A DNA stretch of 64,000 nt from Tachypleus tridentatus (taxonomy: Eukaryota > Arthropoda > Merostomata > Xiphosura > Limulidae): positions 42,442,035 to 42,506,034 of the forward strand of contig NC_134831.1 of NCBI RefSeq assembly GCF_004210375.1, given 5' to 3'. Position 1 is the first letter of the stretch, and the number at the start of each line of letters is the position of its first letter. The translations under genes were made by a program, and so were the position numbers. Below, one piece after another: positions 3,501 to 57,430 of the stretch. The notes under the pieces are model-generated. The model worked only from the letters and a program-made list of their open reading frames with translations, ran no database searches and was not told the origin of the DNA.

Positions 3501-6500
3501 AATTCCAACACATATCTAATATAAATTATTCCTTTTACTCTTCTTCAAGTTTGGCTGATTGATGAAGGTTGGAAGACAATTGTCTAATCTTTTCCCAGAT
3601 TCTCTTAAATAGAGTTTCAAGTTAAGATTTGTACTCCCATTAGGCCATTCCAAGTTTTTCAAACACAAGGGGTGGGCTTAAAGTTTTACTTTTTTTTTTT
3701 TTTTTTACAAGAGTAGATGAAATTAGTGAGCATTTAGTTGTACAAGGATTTAATAGATGGGTTCCACCCCTAATTTGCAGAAATGCATCAAACACCATCA
3801 TGCCACCACTAGTTTTTTTTTACAGCTGGCACACACCCACAAAAATTGTTATGTTATTCATCTCCTTGCAGAGAGATCCATATTCAGCCATTGCTTCAGA
3901 ATAAAGGAGCTTATTCCTTACTTCTATAAAATTGACAAACATTAATCAAACATTAGTGCTATGACTTGTGTAATTTTACTATTCAAAAGGAATCTACATC
4001 CAAAAAGGAATTTTTTGACAGATCTGACAGATGACTATTTTGAATACAAGATGACATTGAACACTATAAAGTTACTGTGAAGTGTGTGCAAATGTGGTTT
4101 CTGTCATTATTATTCTGTCACTATTATGTAATTTCTTTTATCATTTGATGATTTAGTTTTATGCTTTGTTCCAATCCATTAATCACAAGAAGGCAGCTTG
4201 TTAGTAGCAACCAATCTAGATTTTAAATTTTCATCATTCATTATTGTTTATCTATTATTTTGTATTGTTAACACTATGTATTAAATGTAAGATTATTTCT
4301 ATATCTTTACTTCTATGACTATGGTACACTTACGTCTTGCACAGGATCCCCTTCCACCAGTAATCTTCTCAAGGTTCTTCTAATAACAATGCCCAGTCCA
4401 GTTTGGTTTAAATGGTGCTTGTAATTATAACATTTGTCACATTTAAGTAAAACTTCTGGCCAGTGAGAACATTTTTTAGTCTTTTGTGTTAAGTTCCTGA
4501 TGATATTGAATCGTTTTGTAAAGAGAATAGCCACTGTGACCAAGTACTGAAACATAACTTTCCATAATTCTGAAAGTCTGTAATATATCTTGTTGCGACT
4601 TCATGTAATTCTTATTATTACAGTCCTTTTTAAGATGCTTCTGCACCATCGATAGACATGTCTAATATGTTTGCATTCTAGAGTTTCCTTGTAGGTCAAT
4701 CTTCATAGTTCAAGTGTCACAGAAATGTCTGGATACTTGTGACAGGAGAACACGTTTGCAATTCACAACCATTTTTATATTGAGTCTGAATACTAGATAT
4801 ATTGAATATCTGAGGCCCAACTCAAAAATCCAAAAGAGATTTCTTAGAAAAGTAAAAGTTTTGGCTTATTAGTTAACCCTTTTGCTACAGGCTTGATATG
4901 ATATACAAGGGTTTGTCTACACATTTGTACACATTAAGTATTTATTCTATAATTTTTTATACAGCATGTGTATCTTCACAAAATTTGGTAGACTTTTAGT
5001 AAAGGTTACAAGTATTTTGTACACAAAAAATTAGTTTTTTAATTCAATGTTACTAAAGATTTGTTTGTGAATATAGTCTTTTTCATTACTAGTCTGATGC
5101 AAAGTAATTTCATGTTATGATTAAAAAAAACTGGTCTTTGTCCCAAAAATCTCAAATATTATTTGTGTAATTTCTAGAACCTTCTTAATACATTTCAAAC
5201 ATTTGTTTTCAGTTAAAACTTTATATTTTATATTATTTTCTGTACTTTAATTGTGTGGGGTCTGTCACTTAACCAACCTTACAACCATCATAAAAGAATT
5301 AGGAAATAAGTATAAGGTATGCTTTTTTTCCTGTTAGAATACTACATATTATAACATGAAAATACAAGTGTTTAGTCTAAGTAGCTTAAGTCTTATAATG
5401 CTATTTACTTACATATGCATTTATTAATTTTTATCATATTAACACTCCTACGAAAAGTGGGGCCTAATAGGCCCCAGAGCAACTTGAAAGGTTATTAATA
5501 TTAGGCTAATAATTTTGTATTTAAATCAAATTGCTATTTAAATCCATTAATGAATGGATTAACGAGATTCCCACTGTCCCTATCTACGATCTAGCGAAAC
5601 CACAGCCAGGGGAACGGGCTTGGAGAAATCAGGACTAGAAACGTCTTTTCGTAGGAGTGTTAACCTTCCAGTCAAGTTTAACTAACATTACATAACTTGC
5701 ATTGATGCTGTGCTTGTGCACTCATGTTATGTATTCTGTAATATAAAACTGACCTTTAGTCTTTCCTGTCTTGGCTGTGTTTTAATGGACTAGTGTTTTA
5801 TAATATACAGTAACATTTTAATTATTATACATTATATATGTAAATAGATTATTACTATTTAGAAATAAATTATTAAACTTTTTTTAAATATAGAACAACA
5901 AATCAAGAAGTGAAGCTAACAATTATCTCTTCTTGCTGTAATTTTTGTACTCTGTTGTTGCTGGATATAGGTTACTGAGCCTTTTAAAATTTTGCACATG
6001 GAAGATGTCAAAGAAAATTTTTTTTTAGGTTTTATATATACAGTAAAATAACCAAACAAAATCATAATTAACTGTACTGATACCATAGAATTCCACAATA
6101 ATTTATTAAGATTAGTAACTACAATGTATTTCGATTTTAAAAAAATATGAAACTCTGAACAGACTAAAGACACAACCTACCTCCTTGAAATTTTGGACCA
6201 AAAGAATGTGGTAGTCTTTTCACAGATTAAAACAGCTGAGAAAGCTACTCTAAAGGCATTCTAAGTTGTTGATTAGCTATTCACATGTCATATATTGAAG
6301 TAAGTATATACAATGAACCATTTTCAAAAATGGAAAGGGGTGAATGTTTTTGATTCAGTATATAAACCATATTTCAGCCAAATAAAATGATTTGAGGTTC
6401 TTATATATTCTAGCTTGATAATGTTAATAATCTGGGTTCCTGATTTGTATGATACTATAGACCTTGTATTTTGACAATATAAACGTCTAATTTTAAATAG

Positions 6501-9500: not shown

Positions 9501-12500
9501 ACAACAATATTGTTTGAAAATGCATTAATGCTTGTGTAACATCAGTAGTTTAGGCCAGTTAAAATTAAGGAATCAGAGTTACAGCAGCTAACAGGGGCAC
9601 ATGAAGTTACCTATGAGCTTGTTTGTATATGTAAACCAGTGGCTGATTAAATGGCCAGTGCCATGCCAACTAATAACAGGATCTGTATATAAAAAAAAAA
9701 ATTATATCTTGGTAAGAATAAACGAAATAGTAGCAGTTCTGAACCAGTGGGCATCATGACAGACTTGATGGGGGAGCTCTAACATGCTCTTGCAGAACTC
9801 ATTTTATAGGCACTTACAATTGTCATTGTAATAACACCAATCAAATGTTACAGACTGTAATCAGATGTATATATTTAATATAACATGTACTGTCTGTTAA
9901 TATGGTTCATCATATCCATAACACAAATTATAATCTCCTTTTTTCTGATCTGTGAAATTGTTCATTTGGTGAAAAATATTGGAAGGAAAGCTTGCTCCCA
10001 AAAGGGCTTTGACTGTTAATTGTTTATAATTGGGATTTATCTACTTCTTTGCTATTCACTTTAGATATCATAAGTGAGCATCTTTTTATTTTAAAATGTA
10101 AATAATTGGACAGTTTTATGGGTAAAATGTTTTGAAGAAGCAGTAACTTAAACTGGACCAAGATTGAACTTGCAATTTTTCCTGTTGGTTTTGAATGTTT
10201 TATACATAGGACACAGATAATGCTTCACAGCCTCATATTTCATTATTACTTCTTGTTGTTTTATGGTTATATACATATAACTGTTTCTTGTTAACAAGTA
10301 TGGAACATCCATTGAGAATTCTGAGAGTGTGTTGTTACTAAAGCTTTGTTTTCATTCTGTTTCATATTTTGAAATTTCATTTGTTCCTTCTTTATTTATT
10401 TTCACTTGTTTATGTATATCCATTTATTTATTGATAACATACATAGTGTGAAAGTTCTGGTCATAAGTTATTGCCCAAATTTTGATTTTATTTAAGATTA
10501 CCATATCTATAAATGTAGATTTACATGAAGACAAAATGGAGTGATTAAACATAATGAAATATGCTTTTTAATAACTAAGAAACTGACAACACTATGAAAG
10601 TCCTCTAATACTCATGACTATTCACTTAGGTGGCAAACAAGGTTACATGTTTGTTCCAATTTTCTTGGTAAAGGGCACTTATCCTGTGTCAAACCCAGGT
10701 GTAAAATACCATAGGAAATTGTGAAAAATTGAGTGGTGAATTATGATGTTTAACTGTAAAAGTTCTTCCACTGCTTGAACATATCTAACAAATGAACTTG
10801 TAACAAGATTGTCCACTTTATTAGTTTAGATAGTAAATGGATCACATAAATAAATGTAAAACAAGTAACACTGTAAATCATTCAAATTGGACAAATGTTT
10901 AAACTATATACTGAGTAACTTAATTGTTCCTGCAAGAATAAAAAGAGACGGAACTAGTATTTTTATTGAGGTGTTTGTTATAGCTCACTCTATACTTCAG
11001 AATTTTAAAAGAATGTTATTAATAATTGTTTGAGATTAGTTACTCGTGTATGGGAAGAAATTCCTGATGATGATGTTTTAATTCTACAAAAAGTACAGTT
11101 GAAGTTATTGATAATCAACTGGATCATAAATGAGTTTTGGATGGTAGTCTCTGTACAAAGGTAGTAAATCAAATGAATTTTCATCATTTACATTCATCAG
11201 CTATTTATATACAGTGTTCTGGTGAGTGTATGTAAATTTTATCAATATATAGTTATTTTTAATTTCTCTACTTTTCAGAAAAATATTTTGGATAAATGGG
11301 ATATTGATAGTGAAACTGAAGAATTACAGGAACCTTCTTCTACCAGTCACCAGACAATACAACAAGGTTTGGAAGATGCTTTGGATGATGGAACAATACA
11401 TGAACAGCAAAAAGATGCTAGCCTACAGAAAAGTAGTCCAGCAAAGAAATCTTTAACAGAAACATCTGTGGTAGAAATAGCAAAGAAAAACAGATCTCAA
11501 AGCTCTCAAGTTACTCGTAGCAACCAGAACACCAGTCCATTAGCTAGTGGTAACTTAAAAGAGAGTAGAGCTTCTAGTAACATTGGCCCAGGTAATGTTG
11601 AAGGTAATGACCAGAGAAATGTTTCAATGCAAATTCGACGCAAGAAACGGCATTTTATGAAACACATTCCTGTTCGTCAACAGTATCGGCACCTGTTATC
11701 ATCATCAGTTTCTACCGAATCCGTCAGGTCACCTTGTGTAGCAAGTCATGTACCTGTTTCTTGCCAAGATATAAATCACCTTGCTAAAAAAAACCAAAAT
11801 GTACATAATCAAAGTCCTGCTCAAGACTTGATCAATTTTTCCTCTTCACATGGTCTACCAGCAAATTTCAGAGCAGAAAGTATGAATGTCCAAGAAAATC
11901 ATGCAAGTGTTCTTAGTCCTACATCCACTACCCAAGGTAGGACATCCTTTTCTTCTTTCAAAGAAGTTCCATCTTCAAGCTCACCATATCAGGTTACTAA
12001 TTCTTGTCATGCAGTGGGGCCATCTATTTCTTTTTCTCCGTCCACGTCTCAAGGATCAGCCGCAGCTGCTGTGCATTTACATTGCAACTGTGGCTCACAG
12101 CTTGGTGAAGTAATACAAGAACTAAGATGTATTCGAAGGTTTTTGGAAAGTATCATGAATGATCTGAAGAAATCAAACAATCAGTCTTTGTTAGTTGTAG
12201 ATGGTCAACCCTCTTGTGTTACTTTCAACCATCCACAGTCTCTGAAGAGATTCCAAAGATCAAACACTCCTCTATCAGAACCACACTATCAGACAAGTGA
12301 ATTAGAAAAAAAACACCTTTATATGAAAGACCACTGTCCTCTTTCTACCAATTCAACTCTAGAGGAAGAACCTCTAGAGTTTCATGAAGCTGAAGAACAT
12401 CTTACTGCCCTTATAGAGCCATCAGATCATTATGACCAAGAAGAGATCAGTGTAGAAGAAACTGCAGATTTACCAATTGCTAGACATCAGTTAAAAGAAT

Positions 12501-12952
12501 TTGAGGATGCAAATGAAGATTACAGTATATCCCAGAGACCTCTTCAACAAAATGAAAAGGGGGAAACTGGAAGTGAGTTTCCTCAAAATGCTGGAATATT
12601 TCCTCTTGAGAATCAACGTGATCTGAGTAATAGAGAACTTGAAGAAATCCTTTCTAACTGTAATTCACCTCAGCAATTTGCAGTTTGCATTATGAGGAAA
12701 ATATTTACTGAGAAAGAGAGGTTATCTGGGAATGTAAATGGATGTGGAAAACCTCGTTTAAATCCTTTAAAAATAAAGTATATTAAGGAATGTGTTGAAA
12801 AGTTTTATGAATTTGATAAGAATGATCAGGCTGTGTGGAAGGTTTGTGTGAAAGCTATTGATTCTGCGAATAGAAGTTTTCGAAACAGGAATGAAGTGAT
12901 GAAGAAGAGAGCTGCTGAGGCAGTAGCAAGTGCAATACAGAATACTTTGTAA
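536..12952 (+). CDS. BEN-domain protein, four-exon gene
   Basis: Proposed coding exons are 536-554, 1834-1977, 3102-3310 and 11279-12952, about 681 residues. Introns have GT..AG ends (donors gtaagg, gtaaac, gtaaga) and the phases 1, 1 and 0 match at every junction. Exon 1 is tiny (ATG TCA GCG ... G); its second Met (551) gives M-A-F-V-L-V-Y-F. The N-terminus then reads as a compact basic domain (VLVYFPQDKTTTIV). The middle (exon 4 start to about 12600) is Ser/Gln/Asn-rich and looks disordered, with an acidic stretch near 12360-12480. The C-terminus, about 12618-12890, is a BEN domain: FAVCIMRKIFTEKE, LSGNVNG, then IKECVEKFY and W-x-VCVKAID. BEN domains bind DNA or chromatin proteins, so a nuclear regulatory role is inferred from the family. 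Exons 2-4 are well supported. Exon 1 rests on phase and donor only. Confidence 0.82.
1089..1838 (+). repeat. 375-bp tandem duplication of the intron 1 3' end
   Basis: Copy 1 (about 1089-1463) and copy 2 (about 1464-1838) run in parallel at an offset of 375 bases with scattered substitutions. Shared blocks include 'gaagtatagctatatta', 'agcttttaaaggcac' and the splice-acceptor tract 'ccaactcaagcctcag'. The right edge of the unit sits at the acceptor of BEN exon 2, so the 3' splice site exists twice. Only the second copy leads into coding sequence. Confidence 0.85.
2470..2706 (+). mobile_element. tRNA-derived SINE (family A), diverged, head partly lost
   Basis: Contains the family body in order: 'gactcataatcta', 'ccctttcagccatgg', 'gtaaaagagtaac', 'gtggtgatgactagcc', 'actaaattaaggatg', and an 'acaaacaaac' tail. 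The box B part of the tRNA-like head is missing. It lies in intron 2 of the BEN gene. Confidence 0.8.
5443..5659 (+). mobile_element. TTAA-flanked MITE carrying a 28S rRNA gene fragment
   Basis: Perfect inverted ends of at least 15 bp, 'cactcctacgaaaag' at 5443-5457 and its reverse complement at 5645-5659, are flanked by TTAA at 5439-5442 and 5660-5663. TTAA target duplication is typical of piggyBac, Kolobok and a few other cut-and-paste groups. No transposase is present, so it is non-autonomous. The inner right half is recognisably large-subunit rDNA. The left half (5458-5550) is AT-rich and unrecognised. Confidence 0.85.
5551..5632 (+). pseudogene. 28S rRNA gene fragment (captured)
   Basis: Matches the strongly conserved 28S stretch 'tgaatggattaacgagattc', 'ccactgtccctatcta', 'agcgaaaccacagcca' and 'ggaacgggcttgg', with a few differences such as 'acgatct' for 'actatct'. 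This is the well-known region where R2, R1 and Pokey elements insert in other animals. It is only about 80 bases long and sits inside a MITE, so it is not a functional rRNA gene. Confidence 0.9.
7755..7857 (+). mobile_element. tRNA-derived SINE (family B), fragment
   Basis: Shows the head 'gtggttaatattctggact', then 'tgaatctgagggtccatggt' with the box B-like 'ggttcaagtct', then 'ctttgtggctgtgagg'. The head differs from family A (Val/Asn-like wording 'ctggactgtgaatctgag'). A second diverged member lies at 20676. Downstream similarity fades quickly. Confidence 0.6.
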
Positions 12953-17510: not shown

Positions 17511-19088
17511 CACTGCTGGCCAAAATCATAAAGACAATAAACATAAAGAAAAAAATATGCATTTTGCGTTGTTAGACTCAACAACTTATTTGAGTGGAGC
17601 TTCAAAAGATGAAAATAAGAAAAGGGAAAATAAAAATAAAATTAAACTTTTTTAGCATTTAATAGGAAAATGTGAACACTATAAAATTAGCCTAAATACT
17701 AGCTAGTCAAACGTTTAAGACCATACTGAAACGAAGCGTTAATCGGTAAACACGTAACGAAATTTAGTCATTTGTGTTCAAGCATTCGTGTTGTCAACAT
17801 CTCCCACTAACATCTCCTCTGTTATATTGGGTACAAACATGCCAAAGGCTAAAAAGTTGACAGAGCTTGAACGTGACAGAATTGTCGAGCTGCAAAAGCA
17901 AGGTCTCTCTCATCGTGCCATTGCTGGTGAGATTGGGCGTAGTAAAACTGCTGCTGCAAATTTGTTCCTGGGGGATATGGAACGAGAATTTCAAGTGATC
18001 GGCCCAAGAAAACTTCGCCGGCGTTGAGCAGGAGGATTCAACAGGTTGTTCGACAAGACACCAGTCGATCGTCGAATCAGATTAAGGCCCTTACGGACGC
18101 AGAATGCAGCTCAAGAACAATAAGACGGCATATACGAGAGAAAGGCTTTAAAAACCGTAAACGTCTTCAAAGGCCACGCCTCCTTCCACACCACGAAACA
18201 ACTCTGTTAAATTTTTCTGAGAAGCACCAAACATGAGACGTAGAAAAGTGGATGAAGGTTTTGTTCTCTGATGAGAAAAAAATTAACCTGGATGGTCCAG
18301 ATGGTTTCCAACGTTACTGGCACGATAAGGATACCGCACCAGAGACATTTTCTACACGACACAGTGGAGGAGGTTCCATCATGATCTGGGGTGCTTTCTC
18401 CTTCCATGGAACAATGGAGCTTCAGGTTATACACGAGCGTCAAACAGCAGCTGGCTACATTGGAATGTTGGAGAAAGCATCCTTATTGACTGTAGGCCCT
18501 CGCTTGTGTGGAAATGACTGGATCTTTCAGCAGAACAACGCTGCAATCCACAATGCCCGCAAGACAAAGGACTTTTTGATGGCGAATAACGTGATTCTTT
18601 TGGACCATTCAGCGTGTTCGCCCGAACTGATCCTTATTGAAAATGTTTGGGGTGGATGGCAAGAGAAGTCTATAGAAATGGATGTCAGTTCCAAACAGTG
18701 CATGATCTTCGTGAAGCTATCTATACCATTTGGAATAACATTCCAGCCAGCCTTCTGCAAACGCTTATATCGACCATGCCAAAGCGAATGTTTGCAGTTA
18801 TTCGCAATGACGGCCGTGCAACTCACTACTGAGACCTCTTGTTGGGCATTTCCTACCCTGTTTAGGACTTCTTTTTGGTATGGTCTTAATTTTTGACCAG
18901 CTAGTATTTAGGCTAATTTCATAGTGTTCACATTTTCCCTATTAAATGCTAAAAAAGTTTTTTATTTTCATTTTCCTTTTCTTATTTTCATCTTTTGAAG
19001 CTCTACTTAAATAAGTGGTTGAGTCTAACAACGCAAAATGCATATTTTTCCTTTATGTTCATTGGGCTTAAGATTTTGATCAGCAGTT
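17511..19088 (+). mobile_element. Tc1-like transposon, copy 1 (long inverted ends)
   Basis: TA-flanked element (TA at 17509-17510 and 19089-19090). Its inverted ends are about 210 bp, from 'cactgctggccaaaatc' to a mirrored copy ending 'gatcagcagt'. Shared end blocks include 'tagactcaacaacttattt' / 'aaataagtggttgagtcta' and 'gaaaatgtgaacac' / 'gtgttcacattttc'. The interior carries a broken transposase. A sister copy lies in opposite orientation at 22788-24361. Confidence 0.93.
17839..18832 (+). pseudogene. Tc1-like transposase, broken (copy 1)
   Basis: The start MPKAKKLTELERDRIVELQ (17839) opens a helix-turn-helix domain that stops at 18025-18027. The frame then shifts by one base and continues (SRSSNQIKALTDAECSSRT) to a stop near 18235 where the sister has Trp. 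The catalytic region (18252-18655) shows VLFSDEKK (first Asp), [16 protein letters not shown] where the second catalytic Asp is expected but Asn is read, and IENVWGGW with the Glu. The C-terminal piece ends RNDGRATHY in another frame. The family normally moves by cutting and pasting at TA; this copy cannot encode an active enzyme. Confidence 0.9.
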
Positions 19089-32647: not shown

Positions 32648-35031
32648 CAGTCGTATCTCGGTTCTCGAACTTAATCCGTTCCAGAAGGCTGTTCAAAACC
32701 GAATCAATTTTTCCCATAAGAAATACTGTAAATTTAATTAATCCGTTACAGACCTCCAAAAATTACGCATTATCAAGCATTTTAAGTAAAAATATTGCTT
32801 ATTTATACCTGTATAATAATACTTACATGTATAAAGTCAACCACAAAAACTATAAACACAATAAAAAACAATAAATGAAAATTTAACTGCACTTTACCTG
32901 TGCTGAGGAGAGCTGATGGCGTAAGTGAAAGGTGGTGAGGAACGTGGAGAGTAGGATGGTTATTATTGTTTAGAAGGGGAGTCACCTTCCATAAAAACGT
33001 CAGGTTACTCTCCTTCTGGGGTTCTATTTTCTGTCTCTTTGCACCGCTACTACCTGCTTGAGACTCACTGGACCTATTTCTCACTAAAAAGTTGTCTAAT
33101 GTGGTTTGTTTCTGTCTGCATTTTCAAATTTTTCTGAAGTAAGACATGACATTGTCATTGAAACGGTTTATGCTGCAGTTTGCTACAGCTTTGTCAGGAT
33201 GTAATTTTTCCATAAAACTTTGTAACTCTTCCCATTTTCCACACATTTCCTTGATTAGTGAACCAGGAACATCCTCTCTTCCTTCCTCATCTGAAGACAT
33301 TTCCTCAGTTGCCTTCTGTTGCTGCTCCTTATGAAGGTCTTGGAGTTCTTCCGTGGTGAGCTCAGTGTTGTGGTCTTTCAGTAACTCCTCCACATCATCA
33401 CCACTCACATTCAAGCCCATACACTTGCCTAGTGAGACAATATCCTTGATAATAAATAGGCTCAGTCTCAAAGCCTTCAAAGTCTCTATCTGCTACTGAG
33501 TCTGCCCACAATTTCTTCCAGGCTGAGTTCATGGTCCTCAAAGACACTTCCCTCCACGCTTTGTCTATGATCCTCAAGCAATGGAGGATATTAAAGTGAT
33601 TTTTCCAGAACTCTCTTAGGTTAACTCTGTGTCATAGGTCACTTCAAAGCACCTTTGAAACAGTGCTTTGGTGTAGAGTTTCTTCAAGTTTGATATGACC
33701 TGCTGATCCATGGAATGAATTAGAGGAGTCGTGTTAGGGGGCAAGATCTTCACCGTAATGAAACTGTACTCCTCCACCAACCCGTCCTCCAAGCCTGGTG
33801 GGTGAGCAGGTGCATTGTCCATCACAAGAAGGGCCTTGAGTAGCAACTGTTTTTCCGTGAGGTAATTCTTTACACTTGGGGCAAACACTTCATTCACCAC
33901 TCCATAAAAAATTGCCTGGTTACCCTTGCTTTACTATTAGCCCTCCACATGACATTTAGTTTACTTTTCAGGACATTATTTTTCTTAAAAACCCTCGAGT
34001 TCTCAGAATGGTACACAAGCAAAGGCTTAAGTTTTAAGTCCCCACTTGCATTACTACATAACAATAGAGTTAGCCTGTCCTTCATTGGCTTGTGCCCTAG
34101 CAGTGACTTTTCTTTGGTGATGTAGGTCCTCTTTGACATTTTCTCCCAAAAGAGGCCTGTCTCATCACAGCTGAACACTTGTTGGGAAATAAAACCCTCA
34201 GCTTCTACATAGTCCTTAAATTCCCTAACAAATTTATCAGCAGCGTCTTTGTTAGAACTGGCACCCTTCCCATGTTTCACCACACTATGTATGCCACTTC
34301 TCTTCTTAAATTTTTCAAACCACCCCCTACTAGCCTTAAAGACATCACTTGTTTCAGCACTCGTTCCAGGGGTGTTTTTCAGGAGGTCAGTATGCAACTG
34401 TTTTGCTTTCTCACAGTTGATGGTCTCAGAAATGCTATCACCAGCTAACTGTTTTTCGTTTACCCAAATCAACAACAGTTTTTTCTACCTCTTTCATTGT
34501 TTGTGATCTTTGTTTCGTAAGCACTGTCACTTTTTTGCGACATCGGCTTCTTTGATGACCTCTTTATTTTTCAGTATGGTGCAGACTGTAGACTTTGCCA
34601 TACTAAACTGGTTAGACACCCGAACATCACTCTCATACTTCGCTATCAGATCTTTTTTCACTTCTATTGTGGCTCTAACAACTTTTCTTTTTGGTTTGCT
34701 GCTTTCATTATCCTTCTTTGACCCCATGGTGGCTTATTTAATCAGAATATTTAGAAAAAAAAGAAAACGAAAACGTTCTCAGCAGGTTTTAGCGGGGGTG
34801 CGGACTGAGCGACAGGTGTGGGTAAAATGTTTTGGATAAGCTTGGCGTGGGCCGAAAATGGTCGAAGGGTCGTTCGAGTCATCAGTCGGGTTATTTCGGG
34901 GATTCGGGCCACGACAGCTTGGTTCGGGACCCGAGTTTATGTTCGACAACCGAGACATTTTTTTCTCAAACAATATGTTCGAAAACCGAATTGTTCGAGA
35001 AGGGAGTCGTTCAAGAACCGAGGTACCACTG
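32648..35031 (-). mobile_element. Tigger (pogo superfamily) transposon, full length
   Basis: A 2384-bp element with TA target duplicates (32646-32647, 35032-35033). Its ends are 'cagtcgtatctcggttctcg' on the left and, read inward on the minus strand, 'cagtggtacctcggttcttg' on the right; similarity extends inward to 'cgaac...aattcggttttcgaac'. These ends are the classic Tigger wording. The transposase is on the minus strand and broken into several frames. Confidence 0.95.
32985..34727 (-). pseudogene. Tigger transposase, broken
   Basis: Minus-strand pieces in order: an N-terminal helix-turn-helix starting MGSKKDNESSKPKRK (34727-34527); the second CENP-B-type DNA-binding part with GWFEKFKKRSGI, then FSCDETGLFW holding the first catalytic Asp (34475-33894); LLVMDNAPAHP with the second Asp and LPPNTTPLIHSMDQQV with the third (33900-33616); and an acidic C-terminal tail (33480-33124, then 33084-32985). 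All three Asp are present, but frame changes near 34500, 33900, 33620 and 33490 break the ORF. It is related to human CENP-B and Tigger proteins by family; here it is not functional. Confidence 0.92.
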
Positions 35032-39325: not shown

Positions 39326-39821
39326 TATACCTCCTACTTTGTTTAATCAGGACTTGTTCATACCTTCTACTTTGTTTAATCAGGAATTGTTCATATCTTA
39401 TACTTTGTTTAATCAGGAATTGTTCATACCTTCTACTTTGTTTAATCAGGAATTGTTCATATCTTATACTTTGTTTAATCAGGAATTGTTCATATCTTAT
39501 ACTTTGTTTAATCAGGAATTGTTCGTATCTTATACTTTGTTTAATCAGGAATTATTCATACCTTCTACTTTGTTTAATCAGGAATTGTTCATATCTTATA
39601 CTTTGTTTAATCAGGAATTGTTCATACCTTCTACTTTGTTTAATCAGGAATTGTTCATACCTTCTACTTTGTTTCATCAGGAATTGTTCGTATGTTATAC
39701 TTTGTTTAATCAGGAATTGTTCATACCTTCTACTTTGTTTCATCAGGAATTGTTCGTATCTTATACTTTGTTTAATCAGGAATTGTTCATACCTTCTACT
39801 TTGTTTAATCAGGAATTGTTT
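39326..39821 (+). repeat. 33-bp minisatellite, about 14.5 copies of two unit types
   Basis: Each unit is 'tttgtttaatcaggaattg' followed by either 'ttcataccttctac' (type A) or 'ttcatatcttatac' (type B). The order is roughly ABABBBABAABABAA. Because 33 is a multiple of three, one plus frame stays open and reads an 11-residue repeat, LFNQELFI(PST/SYT). Both strands are open, so this is better explained as a minisatellite than as a gene. Confidence 0.93.
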
Positions 39822-40428: not shown

Positions 40429-41022
40429 ACAACAAAAGGTATGTGACTATACAAAGAATTAACAATACTTATATAAAGAAAACAATAAAACACGCACAAG
40501 AAAAAGGCGCAAAGCCAAAACTTTGAAGGATTATCTGGAGTTCACAATCACTTAATTGTTACAAAGTAACAATTAATTACTGATGTTTGTCATAAGACAT
40601 TACCATTAGGCTTACTGTTAAACACCGCATTATTTATTTGTTGTTGTCGGATACAGTGAAATAGTATGGTTGAAATAGGCTTTTCTTCTCTGAAAACTCT
40701 TTAAAGGTGAATTTTTAACAAATTTAATAATTGCCTTAGAAACTGTACTTTGGTTAGGTATGATTCCTGTGTGGTTGCCATATTCTTAAACACTTTAGTT
40801 TTTGAGTAAAAAATGAAGTTCCTCTCGGTCGTTCGGCTGTTTCCGTGACGTTTTACAACTATGACGTAATAGTTGCCAAACATGCTTTGTTGCGCGCCGA
40901 CCATGTTGTTCCTTTCAGTGCTGGTTTTTTATGTAAGTCTGTCGGGGCTTTTTTCGGATTACATACTCTGTGAGACTATTTTTTGTCTTGATATTGCTAC
41001 TTTATGTTTGTTTTATGATAAC

Positions 41023-42599
41023 ATGGTTTACTGCGTTGCTTATGGTTGTAAAAACGGTTCGGCATCGGGCAAAAGCTTCTTTTCGTTTGCGTGCAAGAAG
41101 GAACTGGCAAGGTGGCGACAGTGGGTGCGGATGGTCAATAGGAAGAACTGGACACTTTCACATCATGCAAAGCTTTGTCAAGATCACTTTGAACGCTCAT
41201 GTTTTGTGTCGGATTCCACTGTTTTGGATTCCGTGGGTTTCAAGACAGGGAGGTTAATACTGAAAAAAACCATAGGCAGTAGACAGGATCGTCCCCATCA
41301 TCTTTCCTCGTGTAGAGCTGAGGACTAATCTCAGCCTGCTGCCTACAGGTTCCACTCCTCTGAAGCCATCACGAAAAGAACAAACTTAAAGGAATGTGTG
41401 CAGTATAAAGCGATAAAAAATAACTAGTATAATATAATACTTTAAAAAGTACGAGTTTTTGAAGAATGTAACTAGACATATACATTTCACATTCATGAGC
41501 GTGTTTTGCATTTGTGGCACCTGAAAGTCAGTGAAACCTTGATTTCCTAGTCTAGACAGTGGACAAATCTATCCCAAATAGAGTACATTTCAAGTTTTAA
41601 AGCTGATAGATCATTCTGTAGATATTTTTGTATCATTCTTAAATATGGAAAAGTTTGAAGAATTCCATTTTTCAAATTTAACATTTCAAGATAAATTGAA
41701 ATAAGACTGTGTCTTGAACATGTTGAAGTAATCAAGTAAATGTTATGTATTTATAAAAAAAATTGTAGACTTGTAAACAATCAAATATAAACTCCATAAC
41801 ATATTTCCGTAACGTGTCATAATAAAATTAATCTTAACACAGTACTTTGACATTGTCATATTAAATGTAAATCTCATAAACCTCGTAAAGCATGTTGTTT
41901 TAATATATAGTCTTATATCTTCAGCTTTTAGAGGAAAGTACTGCTCATGTCACAGTGCCTACTTCTGTAGAGGAAGTTGTGCTTCAGCCCACCCCTGATG
42001 ATGACTGCCATGACTCTAGAGCTGACTCATTTCAGAGTGTGTCTGTTCACACTCTTGTAAGTAGATATTGTTAGATTAAACATTCATAAGTTGCAATAAT
42101 TGATGTATAATTTTATTTACATTAATTTGAATCTAACTGTGAAAGAATGTTATTATTTCAACTTAAATAAAAACCTATTGTTTTAGCTTATCCACAAGTA
42201 TTCCAAGAGGTACACAGACTGGCTGGTATTCTGTTTCCAGAGGTGTACACCATACAGGTATTCCCATCTGGCTTGAAGACTGTAGCTACCCAGTCAGAAA
42301 ATCTTCCAACAATAGATTTTGCTTGTCGTACTGGTAAGTTAGTTTGAATATGAATATGACATTTTCATTCATGATTTAACAATATTCAATAGTCAGATTA
42401 ATCTTGTTAATATTATTTTGATTATTTATTATAAACTATTGCTGGTAAACAGTACATTGTTCATATACATGTAATTCTGTCACTGATTTTTGCAGAATCA
42501 TCACCTGCTGCTAAGAAGTTCTCTGTATCACAAGTGACAGACGCTGATGATACTGATGATGTTCATGTGAGTGATGATGAAGGTGCTGATCCTGACTAG
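41023..42599 (+). CDS. THAP-domain protein, four exons, frame partly uncertain
   Basis: Exon 1 starts MVYCVAYGCKNG (41023) and holds a C2CH THAP zinc finger: C-x4-C, W-x2-W-x-R, NWTLSHHAKLCQDHFERSCF. The closing VPIIFP motif lies in the next frame (about 41288-41310), so a one-base shift or a 43-base mini-intron must be assumed. Exon 2, 41925-42056 (acceptor ttcag, donor gtaagt), encodes LLEESTAHVTVPTSVEE. Exon 3, about 42187-42333, encodes HRLAGILFPEVYTIQVFPSG; its frame fits exon 2 only if a later acceptor at about 42206 is used. Exon 4, 42496-42599, ends in an acidic tail and joins exon 3 in phase. THAP fingers bind DNA. It lies inside a TTAA-flanked unit and may be a transposon accessory protein, or a decaying gene. 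Confidence 0.6.
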
Positions 42600-54893: not shown

Positions 54894-54982
54894 TCATGAC
54901 TAATTCTGTTAAACCTTATAACACTTTAAATGGCGTTCCAGTTCCAAAACTCAACTTCTATATAGAAAGATACAAGACTGAT

Positions 54983-55548
54983 GAACTAAATGTGATATAG
55001 GGATACATGATTGTTGGACTGAGTGTCATACAGGGATACATGATTGTTGAACTAACTGTTATACAGGGTAACATGATTGTTGAACTAACTGTTATACAGG
55101 GTAACATGATTGTTGAACTAAGTGTCATACAGGGATACATGATTGTTTAACTAAATGTCGTAAAGGGATACATGATTGTTGAACTAAATGTCATAAAGGG
55201 ATACATGATTGTTGAACTAAATGTCATAAAGGGATATATGATTGTTGAACTAAATGTTATCCAGGAATACATGATTGTTGAACTGAGGTCATACAGGGAT
55301 ACATGATTGTTGAACTGAGTGTCATACAGGGATACATGATTGTTGAACTAAATGTTATACAGGGATATATGATTGTTGAATTAAGTGATATACAAGGATA
55401 CATGATTGTTGAACTAAATGTTATACAGGGATACATGATTATTGAACTAAGTGATATACAAGGATACATGATTGTTGAACTAAATGTTATACAGGGATAT
55501 ATGATTGTTGAATTAAGTGTTATATTAGGATACAAGGTTGTTAAAATA
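54983..55548 (+). repeat. 33-bp minisatellite, about 17 copies
   Basis: Units 'gggatacatgattgttgaac' plus 'taaatgttataca' vary mainly in the second part (taaatgtcata, tgagtgtcata, taagtgatata). Where the length stays at 33, one plus frame reads MIVELNVIQGY over and over and the minus frame also stays open. A one-base loss near 55287 resets the frame. Judged non-coding. Confidence 0.92.
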
Positions 55549-57430
55549 AACCGATACTTATCATTTATAGACTTAAGTTAAAAGTTTGATCTTTAATATG
55601 TGTAAATATATATATATATATTTACTGAACTTAAAACTTGTATTGTAGAAGTCGAATATAAACTAGACGTTTAACGCACAAAGTGAGAAAATATTTAATC
55701 TAAGTTTATAGAATTTCATAAAACAATTTTTTTAGTAATGTTAGTACGATATATATGCTTGAACTATAAGGATTTTCACTGTTTCTCTATACACTTCATT
55801 ATGATGTAGCTGAAATGTAATATTTTCAAAAATTAAATTTGTTTTCGTAAAAAAGAGCTACAGTATTTAGTCTAATTTAATAAACAGGTATAAAGTATGT
55901 GAGAATTTTCAAACACCTTTCTATACAAGTTAAATAAATGTTCTGTATGATTCTTGCATGACGCTTGTTTCAAATAGAAGCCTAAGGTTGTTATAATTTT
56001 TTACAACTTTTGCAAAGCCACGGAATTTGTAAAATAATAAACTAACTATAATCGCTCAAATGAAAGTTTAAACGGCATATTTTTGTAGATCTTCATAAAA
56101 TTATAATTAAAACTTTATCATGCAATATTTCGTACTATGAGTAATAAAGCTGTAATTTATTTTAATTTAATTTACTGTTTTAATTTAATTTAATAGTTTT
56201 AAAATATTGTTATGGTAGAAGACATCAGTACAAAACTAGACTTAACATTTTTGTGTGTGAGGGGCACAAGATGATTCACTGTGATATGCTAGTCAGAATT
56301 ACTGTATCCAAAGAAAGTATCTCCATAGTATTAGTCAAGTGAGACGGTGCTTTATACGCATATTTTCAAGTAAATTTAATTAATATACAGAAATTTACAG
56401 AAGTAGATTATTTATTTATTTTTGGTTAGTTTATATAATAGAAAAATCTATTTTTGAAAAGTTTATGTATATAAACAGACCTGATGAAAGTTCTTTCGTT
56501 AAGAGATTGTTTGACAAAGCATAATATCAGTCTTACCACATTTAGTTGGAGTAAAATATTTATATAAACGGTAATAACTTAGAGGTAAAATTAGATTCAC
56601 CAGGACAAAAAAATAAAAACAGAGCTATATAGGTCATGATAGAATGAATACACGTTAACTGTTGCATATTTTGCATTTCAAAATAGTGTATAACTTTTAG
56701 GTTATATGATTCAGAATAAAATATTTAGATTTTAAACGTTTTACGGTCAAGTGAACTCGAAACAGTCTCTTTCATGACTATTTAGATTTTAAATGAAAGC
56801 AGTATATACGTATAATGATATGTGTTAATAATGAAATACGCTACACAAGTAGTAAAACTATAAAAATCAAAATATCAACTTTTACTTATTCAAATACTTT
56901 CTTTGCTATGACGAACTAAATACATAGTTTTACCTTCATTTACTTTTGGACATACAGCTTTAGTTAATATTTTGATAGGATCAGAGTAAACTATGTATTT
57001 GGAATGAAACTCAAACCCAAGTTGGCCATTAGTATAGCTAATTGAATGTATATTCATACTTATGTAGATTAGACTGAATTGTTTCATCAAATGGGTATCT
57101 TTGCTGTTAACGATATTATCGTCCGTAATTCCAGTAATATCTCATGAAGTTTGAACAGTCTTGAAGATTTGGTTAGTCCGAAATAATTGCATTAAACAAA
57201 CAAAGAATACTAATTTTTGTAATAACAGTGTAATTGTAAACATTAAATCAATATTAAAATTAATGACATTTGATTATACTTTCTAGAATTCAAATGATTT
57301 AAGTTAACTTGGAAAAGAGCTTTCTGGCTAGTTAATAAATCTTACTATGATAGATGTAGCGTGTATGTAAGTATCTATGTATGTAACAAAAACTCTTGAG
57401 CTATCTATTGAATGGCACAACTAGCACAAA
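55549..57430. other. no gene; diverged repeat copies
   Basis: AT-rich, with a TA microsatellite at about 55602-55621. Segments 56728-56875 and 57280-57360 resemble the 44.6-45.4 kb repeat units, including a decayed hairpin 'agtctctttcatgact' (about 56763-56778). No exon supported. Confidence 0.45.

Follow-up and report, generated by a model that had tools for sequence, protein, structure and literature searches.

MITEs of the piggyBac superfamily are already known, as is the carriage of rDNA spacer sequence by a piggyBac element, for which Pokey of Daphnia is the precedent. R9 of rotifers makes a 126-bp 28S duplication at insertion, and SINE28 and other rRNA-derived SINEs are retroposed repeat families, without inverted ends, that spread a 28S segment. 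Our analysis concerns a miniature element in a stretch of 64,000 nucleotides of Tachypleus tridentatus (NC_134831.1, positions 42,442,035 to 42,506,034, forward strand; hereafter the window). This MITE shares with other piggyBac superfamily MITEs TTAA duplications, short inverted ends, a left palindrome and a long relative with a DDE_Tnp_1_7 transposase, and differs from them in carrying coding 28S rDNA and in ending on the right in a bare repeat. The R9 duplication likewise covers a long piece of 28S (in the present genome the distance from the R2 site to AAATCAG is 117 bp), but R9 is a retrotransposon within rDNA. We rejected membership in the class of 28S-derived SINEs, as SINEs lack constant TTAA duplications and the MITE has these together with perfect inverted ends.

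R2 elements with 28S-derived 3' ends also represent uptake of this same part of 28S by a mobile element, and one locus of this genome joins R2 to 28S, although R2 is a retrotransposon without inverted ends and the MITE is a DNA transposon (available part of PMC5035012). Pokey and its MITEs (mPok) are also close, being piggyBac-type elements with TTAA and rDNA-derived cargo. Pokey inserts in 28S at what we deduce to be TCTC-TTAA-GGTAGCC and carries repeats of the IGS and ITS2 spacers (available part of PMC3849761), in contrast to the 28S coding sequence carried by the MITE. Among the listed titles and abstract openings of the open-licence PMC literature, we recognised no 28S-bearing MITE, and the papers listed for rDNA or 28S combined with piggyBac MITEs all dealt with Pokey. 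As far as this search shows, a 28S-coding cargo at about 2,000 copies, accompanied by longer relatives with other 28S stretches, is new.

Layout of the MITE and its 28S cargo

The window copy reads TTAA, CACTCCTACGAAAAG, body, CTTTTCGTAGGAGTG and TTAA (Table 1). The original prediction, made from the sequence of the window, had described a 217-bp unit with perfect 15-bp inverted ends and TTAA duplicates, and its coordinates and the 217-bp length were correct. The palindrome adjoining the left end has an equivalent position in a 2,229-bp long element described below, and the right side of the MITE is without a palindrome.

Table 1. Features of the MITE copy in the window
Feature	Position in window	Strand	Basis
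TTAA-flanked insertion, 225 bp (217 bp without both TTAAs)	5439..5663		
Inverted arms, 19 nt each (15 bp plus TTAA), 187-nt spacing	5439..5457 and 5645..5663		100% complementary
Left TTAA target duplication	5439..5442	.	arm comparison and aligned copies
Left terminal inverted repeat, 15 bp, CACTCCTACGAAAAG	5443..5457	+	100% complementary to 5645-5659
19-bp palindrome TGGGGCCTAATAGGCCCCA adjoining left end	5458..5476 (element 20-38)	+	self-complementary
Left arm common to 2,229-bp piggyBac element	5439..5538	+	MITE family consensus 97/100 bp
83-bp 28S rDNA piece, ATGAATGG..AAATCAG, sense strand	5550..5632 (element 112-194)	+	81/83 identical to 28S reference
12-nt stretch GACTAGAAACGT, 28S piece to right terminal repeat	5633..5644	+	reading of copies
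28S/right-end junction sequence of MITE, AGAAATCAGGACTAGAAACG			
Right terminal inverted repeat, 15 bp	5645..5659	-	complementary to left repeat
Right TTAA target duplication	5660..5663	.	arm comparison and aligned copies

Where about 80 bases of 28S had been predicted inside the element, we found a piece with 2 mismatches over its 83 bp relative to a 292-bp 28S reference, which was built by joining two of the 28S copies that are dispersed through this genome. The MITE family consensus has one fixed difference from 28S (CAGCCAGGGG versus CAGCCAAGGG), and this difference and both 28S edges are identical across the aligned MITE copies. The cargo lies inside the element, with its left edge 107 bp inside the left TTAA and its right edge 12 nt from the terminal repeat. 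A TTAA predicted within the cargo is indeed present, in GGATTAACGAG, away from either cargo edge. The left edge itself reads TTA|ATGAATGG, such that another TTAA spans it, which may be chance. Rfam searched at gathering thresholds gave zero matches in the whole window, and thus missed the 28S piece.

Elsewhere in the window, frames were observed with a BEN domain (11222-12952), a weak DDE_3 match under the cut-off (18252-18896), DDE_1 plus HTH_Tnp_Tc5 (33894-34475) and a THAP domain (40873-41328). Two minisatellites with 33-bp units occupy 39327-39820 (15 copies, one reading frame of which forms a repetitive ORF of 183 aa) and 54969-55550 (17.7 copies). Coagulogen is a horseshoe crab protein, and the coagulin family PF02035 had 19 matches in the genome and 0 in 14 control genomes.

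Family size and the long piggyBac relative

We searched an assembly of 2.17 Gb in 205 contigs, including 13 contigs of 59-276 Mb (C1-C13) and C19 of 70 Mb. The 19-nt end with its TTAA occurred genome-wide, at up to one mismatch, 2,669 times forward and 2,679 times in reverse (5,348 in all, or about 2,674 pairs; 0 for the reversed control), and the 20-nt 28S/right-end junction, at up to two mismatches, 1,065 and 1,003 times (2,068 in all; 3 and 4 for the control). Both counts are far beyond chance. They were used for copy number in place of an initial DNA search, whose 43 matches are a large undercount because common words were skipped. TTAA stood on both sides of 33 of 33 MITE copies aligning over their full length, a set chosen by full alignment and leaving out copies with a mutated or missing end (L035, in which the TTAAs are mutated, L042 and L043). 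The length was 225 bp or one less in 28 of these 33 copies; others measured 208 and 192 bp. The many TTAA-flanked copies of about 217 bp that the original prediction proposed to look for across the genome are therefore present, in a family that is short, non-coding, high in copy number, uniform in length and bounded by inverted ends, with the TTAA target duplication of piggyBac elements.

The form with 28S accounts for about three-quarters of the family (2,068 junctions versus about 2,674 end pairs). On C1, the first 30 end loci represented 19 insertions, 17 of which had both ends at up to two mismatches, and 16 of the 19 carried the 28S piece (15 of the two-ended insertions plus L066). The fifteen 28S-bearing copies with both ends differ from the consensus by a mean of 1.8% (0.9-3.6%), and by this measure the burst is fairly young. 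The dominance of the 28S form would also be expected if the 28S piece were useful to the MITE, for example as a nucleolar address or a structural part. However, in the C1 sample the 28S part and the remainder of the element diverge at the same pace (24 of 1,244 positions versus 37 of 2,094 outside), and in a second set of copies that were picked by likeness to the window copy the 28S part diverges faster (50 of 2,738 versus 46 of 4,585); it thus shows no sign of being kept in these alignments. Furthermore, the unlike ends of the 28S form, with a palindrome on the left and a bare repeat on the right, could alone raise mobility, and a burst from a single master copy would suffice. We consider a useful 28S piece very improbable.

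A profile search of the genome with PF13843, the piggyBac transposase family, gave 116 scored matches among 1,650 candidates. One of these (C2:75132476-75133477, E 9.8e-65) lies between MITE-type ends in a 2,229-bp element at C2:75131598-75133826, which provides the longer relative with a transposase that the original prediction had suggested seeking. This element starts with TTAA-CACTCCTACGAAAAG and finishes with TTTTTCGTAGGAGTG-TTAA, and 97 of its first 100 bp are identical to the MITE consensus. A 17-bp palindrome core is present near each tip, starting 16 nt in from the left one and ending 42 nt short of the right one. A genome-wide search with this right end gave 209 occurrences at up to two mismatches (control 0), and among 100 of these right ends listed, 38 were preceded on the same strand by a PF13843 match at 305-480 bp, the distance being exactly 335 bp in 19. 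Because a cysteine-rich stretch with CxxC pairs before the C2 right end is in a different frame from the end of the PF13843 match, the C2 copy may be dead. A working long copy presumably exists in the genome.

The same ends, the high copy number and the DDE_Tnp_1_7 transposase of the long relative together identify a MITE family of the piggyBac type that carries 28S DNA as a passenger, and the TTAA-specific MITE family of the original prediction was thus borne out. Kolobok elements also target TTAA, and a Kolobok identity was dropped once the piggyBac transposase had been found between MITE ends. The two best PF13843 matches, L131 and L132, were rejected as parents of the MITE since they are without MITE ends; L131 is about 6 kb from a MITE copy, yet is a different element. 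The 19-bp left palindrome of the MITE is comparable to those of Trichoplusia piggyBac, where identical 19-bp palindromes are present at both ends, asymmetric in their distance from the tips, and are bound by cysteine-rich domains (available part of PMC11707139).

Foldback relatives and capture of 28S

The right repeat of the MITE shares its ..GAAAAG with the long element's left tip, whereas the right tip of the long element reads ..GAAAAA. This one-base difference suggests, with less certainty than the family assignment, that the right repeat derived from a left tip. Foldbacks composed of two left arms without 28S were found at L046, L047, L086 (319 bp), L087 (162 bp), L089 (76 bp), L088 (64 bp) and L081 (57 bp), the last three being extremely short family copies with both ends present. 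In addition, 28S is located between two arms in L085 (393 bp) and in L101/L102 (528 and 592 bp, with near-identical flanks), and L110 contains 28S with one arm found. Positions 1379-1678 of L013 hold a foldback element that belongs to a different family, and 47 bp of 28S occupy its middle.

On the 292-bp reference, the 28S edges are 180-262 in the MITE, 183-270 in L085, 80-265 in L101/L102 and 59-262 in L110. L101 has ACTCTC-GATAGCC in place of the 28S sequence ACTCTCTTAAGGTAGCC, a change that looks like an R2 footprint when compared with the R2 end in L010, and the R2 site is uninterrupted in L110. The 28S of L085 and that of the MITE may stem from one event, as their edges are close and trimming of one longer piece is possible. 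On these edges, 28S was caught by this piggyBac MITE family at least twice, and probably three or four times. The family makes up about 0.03% of the genome, such that 0.02-0.06 cases would be expected if 69-200 fragments landed at random, and the chance of at least two landings in the family is 0.0002-0.0015, a figure that ignores that the cases were sought.

The original prediction considered it plausible that a TTAA-specific element resident in rDNA had acquired the adjoining rDNA sequence and spread it beyond that locus, with the TTAA in the cargo placed in the region used by R2, R1 and Pokey. The cargo is the 28S sense strand with an internal TTAA, the further TTAA across its left edge would be in keeping with such an event, and Pokey shows that a piggyBac element can inhabit 28S and carry rDNA spacer repeats (available part of PMC3849761). 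However, the cargo is internal, with 12 nt before the right repeat, and neither of its edges coincides with a tip or TTAA junction of the element. For insertion, Pokey prefers C at -1, T at -4, and AAATG and T downstream (available part of PMC3849761), and we deduce its 28S site to be TCTC-TTAA-GGTAGCCAAATGCCT, which lies outside the cargo and some 45 bp upstream, so the TTAA within the cargo is not Pokey's. Also, the 28S stretches enclosed by two arms in the longer relatives have different edges. We therefore regard it as highly unlikely that an rDNA flank was captured by way of TTAA, and favour a break healed with a 28S fragment.

The sequence of events that we propose begins with a foldback MITE that had a left end on either side, in which a DNA break near the palindrome centre would have been healed with a free 28S fragment, as DNA or cDNA, from around the R2 target, placing this fragment between the arms. 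Most of the right arm, including its palindrome, would then have been lost to leave the bare terminal repeat, and the 28S-bearing 225-bp form would have amplified after this single capture, with the transposase of the long piggyBac family moving it in trans. We infer, with good support, both the movement in trans and the status of the 28S piece as passenger DNA captured once before the burst; the foldback precursor, the insertion of an R2-region 28S fragment between its arms and the loss of the right arm are less certain. Donors of piggyBat with two left ends were inactive with normal transposase in cell assays (available part of PMC11707139), a finding that weighs against the mobility of foldbacks with two left ends, even though copies of this kind with TTAA on both sides exist here. 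For this explanation as a whole, a piggyBac MITE mobilised in trans whose 28S passenger was caught by a foldback before arm loss and a burst, we estimate a probability of about 0.8.

Dispersed 28S fragments and R2

Outside the MITE, a 25-mer at the R2 site occurred at 69 places with up to one mismatch (33 exact; control 0), of which 67 are on C1-C13; the 69 include duplicated loci. A control 25-mer far upstream in 28S occurred at 6 places, another immediately downstream at 16 (a single stretch of C11 accounting for 8) and an 18S 25-mer at 31 (18 on C19, 4 on C14/C15 and 9 on C1-C13), such that R2-region fragments are in greater excess relative to some controls than to others. The rDNA array seems to be unassembled, the universal 28S 25-mer being present at just 6 places. 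At C10:109530501 and C10:109533039, 18S and 28S words were observed about 2.5 kb apart on one strand in an rDNA-unit-like arrangement. Since the 18S words come in two forms (..CGGGA and ..CGGGG), some of the assembled rDNA may be foreign.

We read 30 of the 33 exact places (L090-L099 and L111-L130; C9:75322658 and two places on C19 were omitted) and the inexact L110, and by eye combined places that shared their flanks, which gave 23 groups. In 14 of the 23 groups the 3' edge fell within -6 to +12 nt of AAATCAG, and in 5 of these it was no more than 1 nt away. Because the first query ended at this edge, it was checked with a longer reference, which showed it on loci found by another word as well. 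The 5' edges were at reference positions 57-80 in nine groups, at 111-120 in nine and elsewhere in five, the 111-120 cluster being partly forced by a search word that begins at 120. Among the 36 one-mismatch places, 16 differed from the word at its first or second base, where an even spread would give about 3, as if their 28S started at 121-122, a position that precedes the R2 nick by 27-28 nt.

Several fragments have unusual surroundings. L121 and L094 hold 28S beside a tRNA-like SINE that is also seen in L134, and L015 holds a fragment in a 242-bp direct repeat. L113 and L115 are tandem repeats grown from R2-site 28S, and the 28S piece of L120 is followed by its own inverted copy.

R2 is a natural suspect as the source of such fragments. 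In L010/L011, which are one locus present twice (99.9% alike), an R2 3' end runs into 117 bp of 28S whose last bases are AAATCAG, at a joint outside rDNA, and the reverse transcriptase of this locus has its best matches among solved proteins in those of R2 (9nl3_A, E 6.2e-86). L117, likewise outside any rDNA array, contains 28S up to CTCTTAAGG, followed by sequence that by eye resembles the R2 of L010/L011. A horseshoe crab R2 is described as having an intact frame and 28S duplications at its 5' junctions, with a ribozyme cut predicted 28 nt upstream of the site (available part of PMC3774820).

These observations raise a tentative alternative in which the fragment arrived as RNA, with an R2 or 28S transcript ending near AAATCAG being reverse-transcribed and the MITE an accidental target. 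The shared 3' edge of the 14 groups with their variable 5' edges, the run of R2 into 28S stopping at AAATCAG outside rDNA in L010/L011, and the 16 of 36 inexact places that fit a start at the predicted ribozyme cut (available part of PMC3774820) are all consistent with this route. Conversely, 9 of the 23 groups end elsewhere, no target duplications were seen by eye around the fragments at the loci read, and the piece in L121 looks by eye like a replacement of part of the SINE repeat. The 36 one-mismatch places, of which L110 alone was read, may include duplicated families, and the horseshoe crab R2 ribozyme did not cleave in vitro (available part of PMC3774820). We regard arrival as RNA as possible, though doubtful.

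A broader proposal, which we hold with similarly low confidence, is that R2 activity, through transcripts or target cleavage, sheds 28S fragments from the R2 region into the whole genome, with a 3' edge preferred near AAATCAG and perhaps a 5' edge where the R2 ribozyme would cut, and that piggyBac foldbacks repeatedly catch them close to the palindrome centre, one such catch having been amplified in a burst to about 2,000 copies. Such a possible by-product of R2 activity becomes testable through the scattered R2-region fragments, and the ordered series of a 2.2-kb parent, a foldback, a foldback with 28S and a burst form is material for studies of DNA capture by MITEs. About 2,070 copies of 83 bp amount to some 172 kb of 28S-coding sequence outside rDNA, which in this species would mislead any rDNA assay by qPCR, read depth or probe that falls within the 83-base piece. 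If the proposal on R2 is true, one mobile element, by damaging rDNA, would contribute to the expansion of another.
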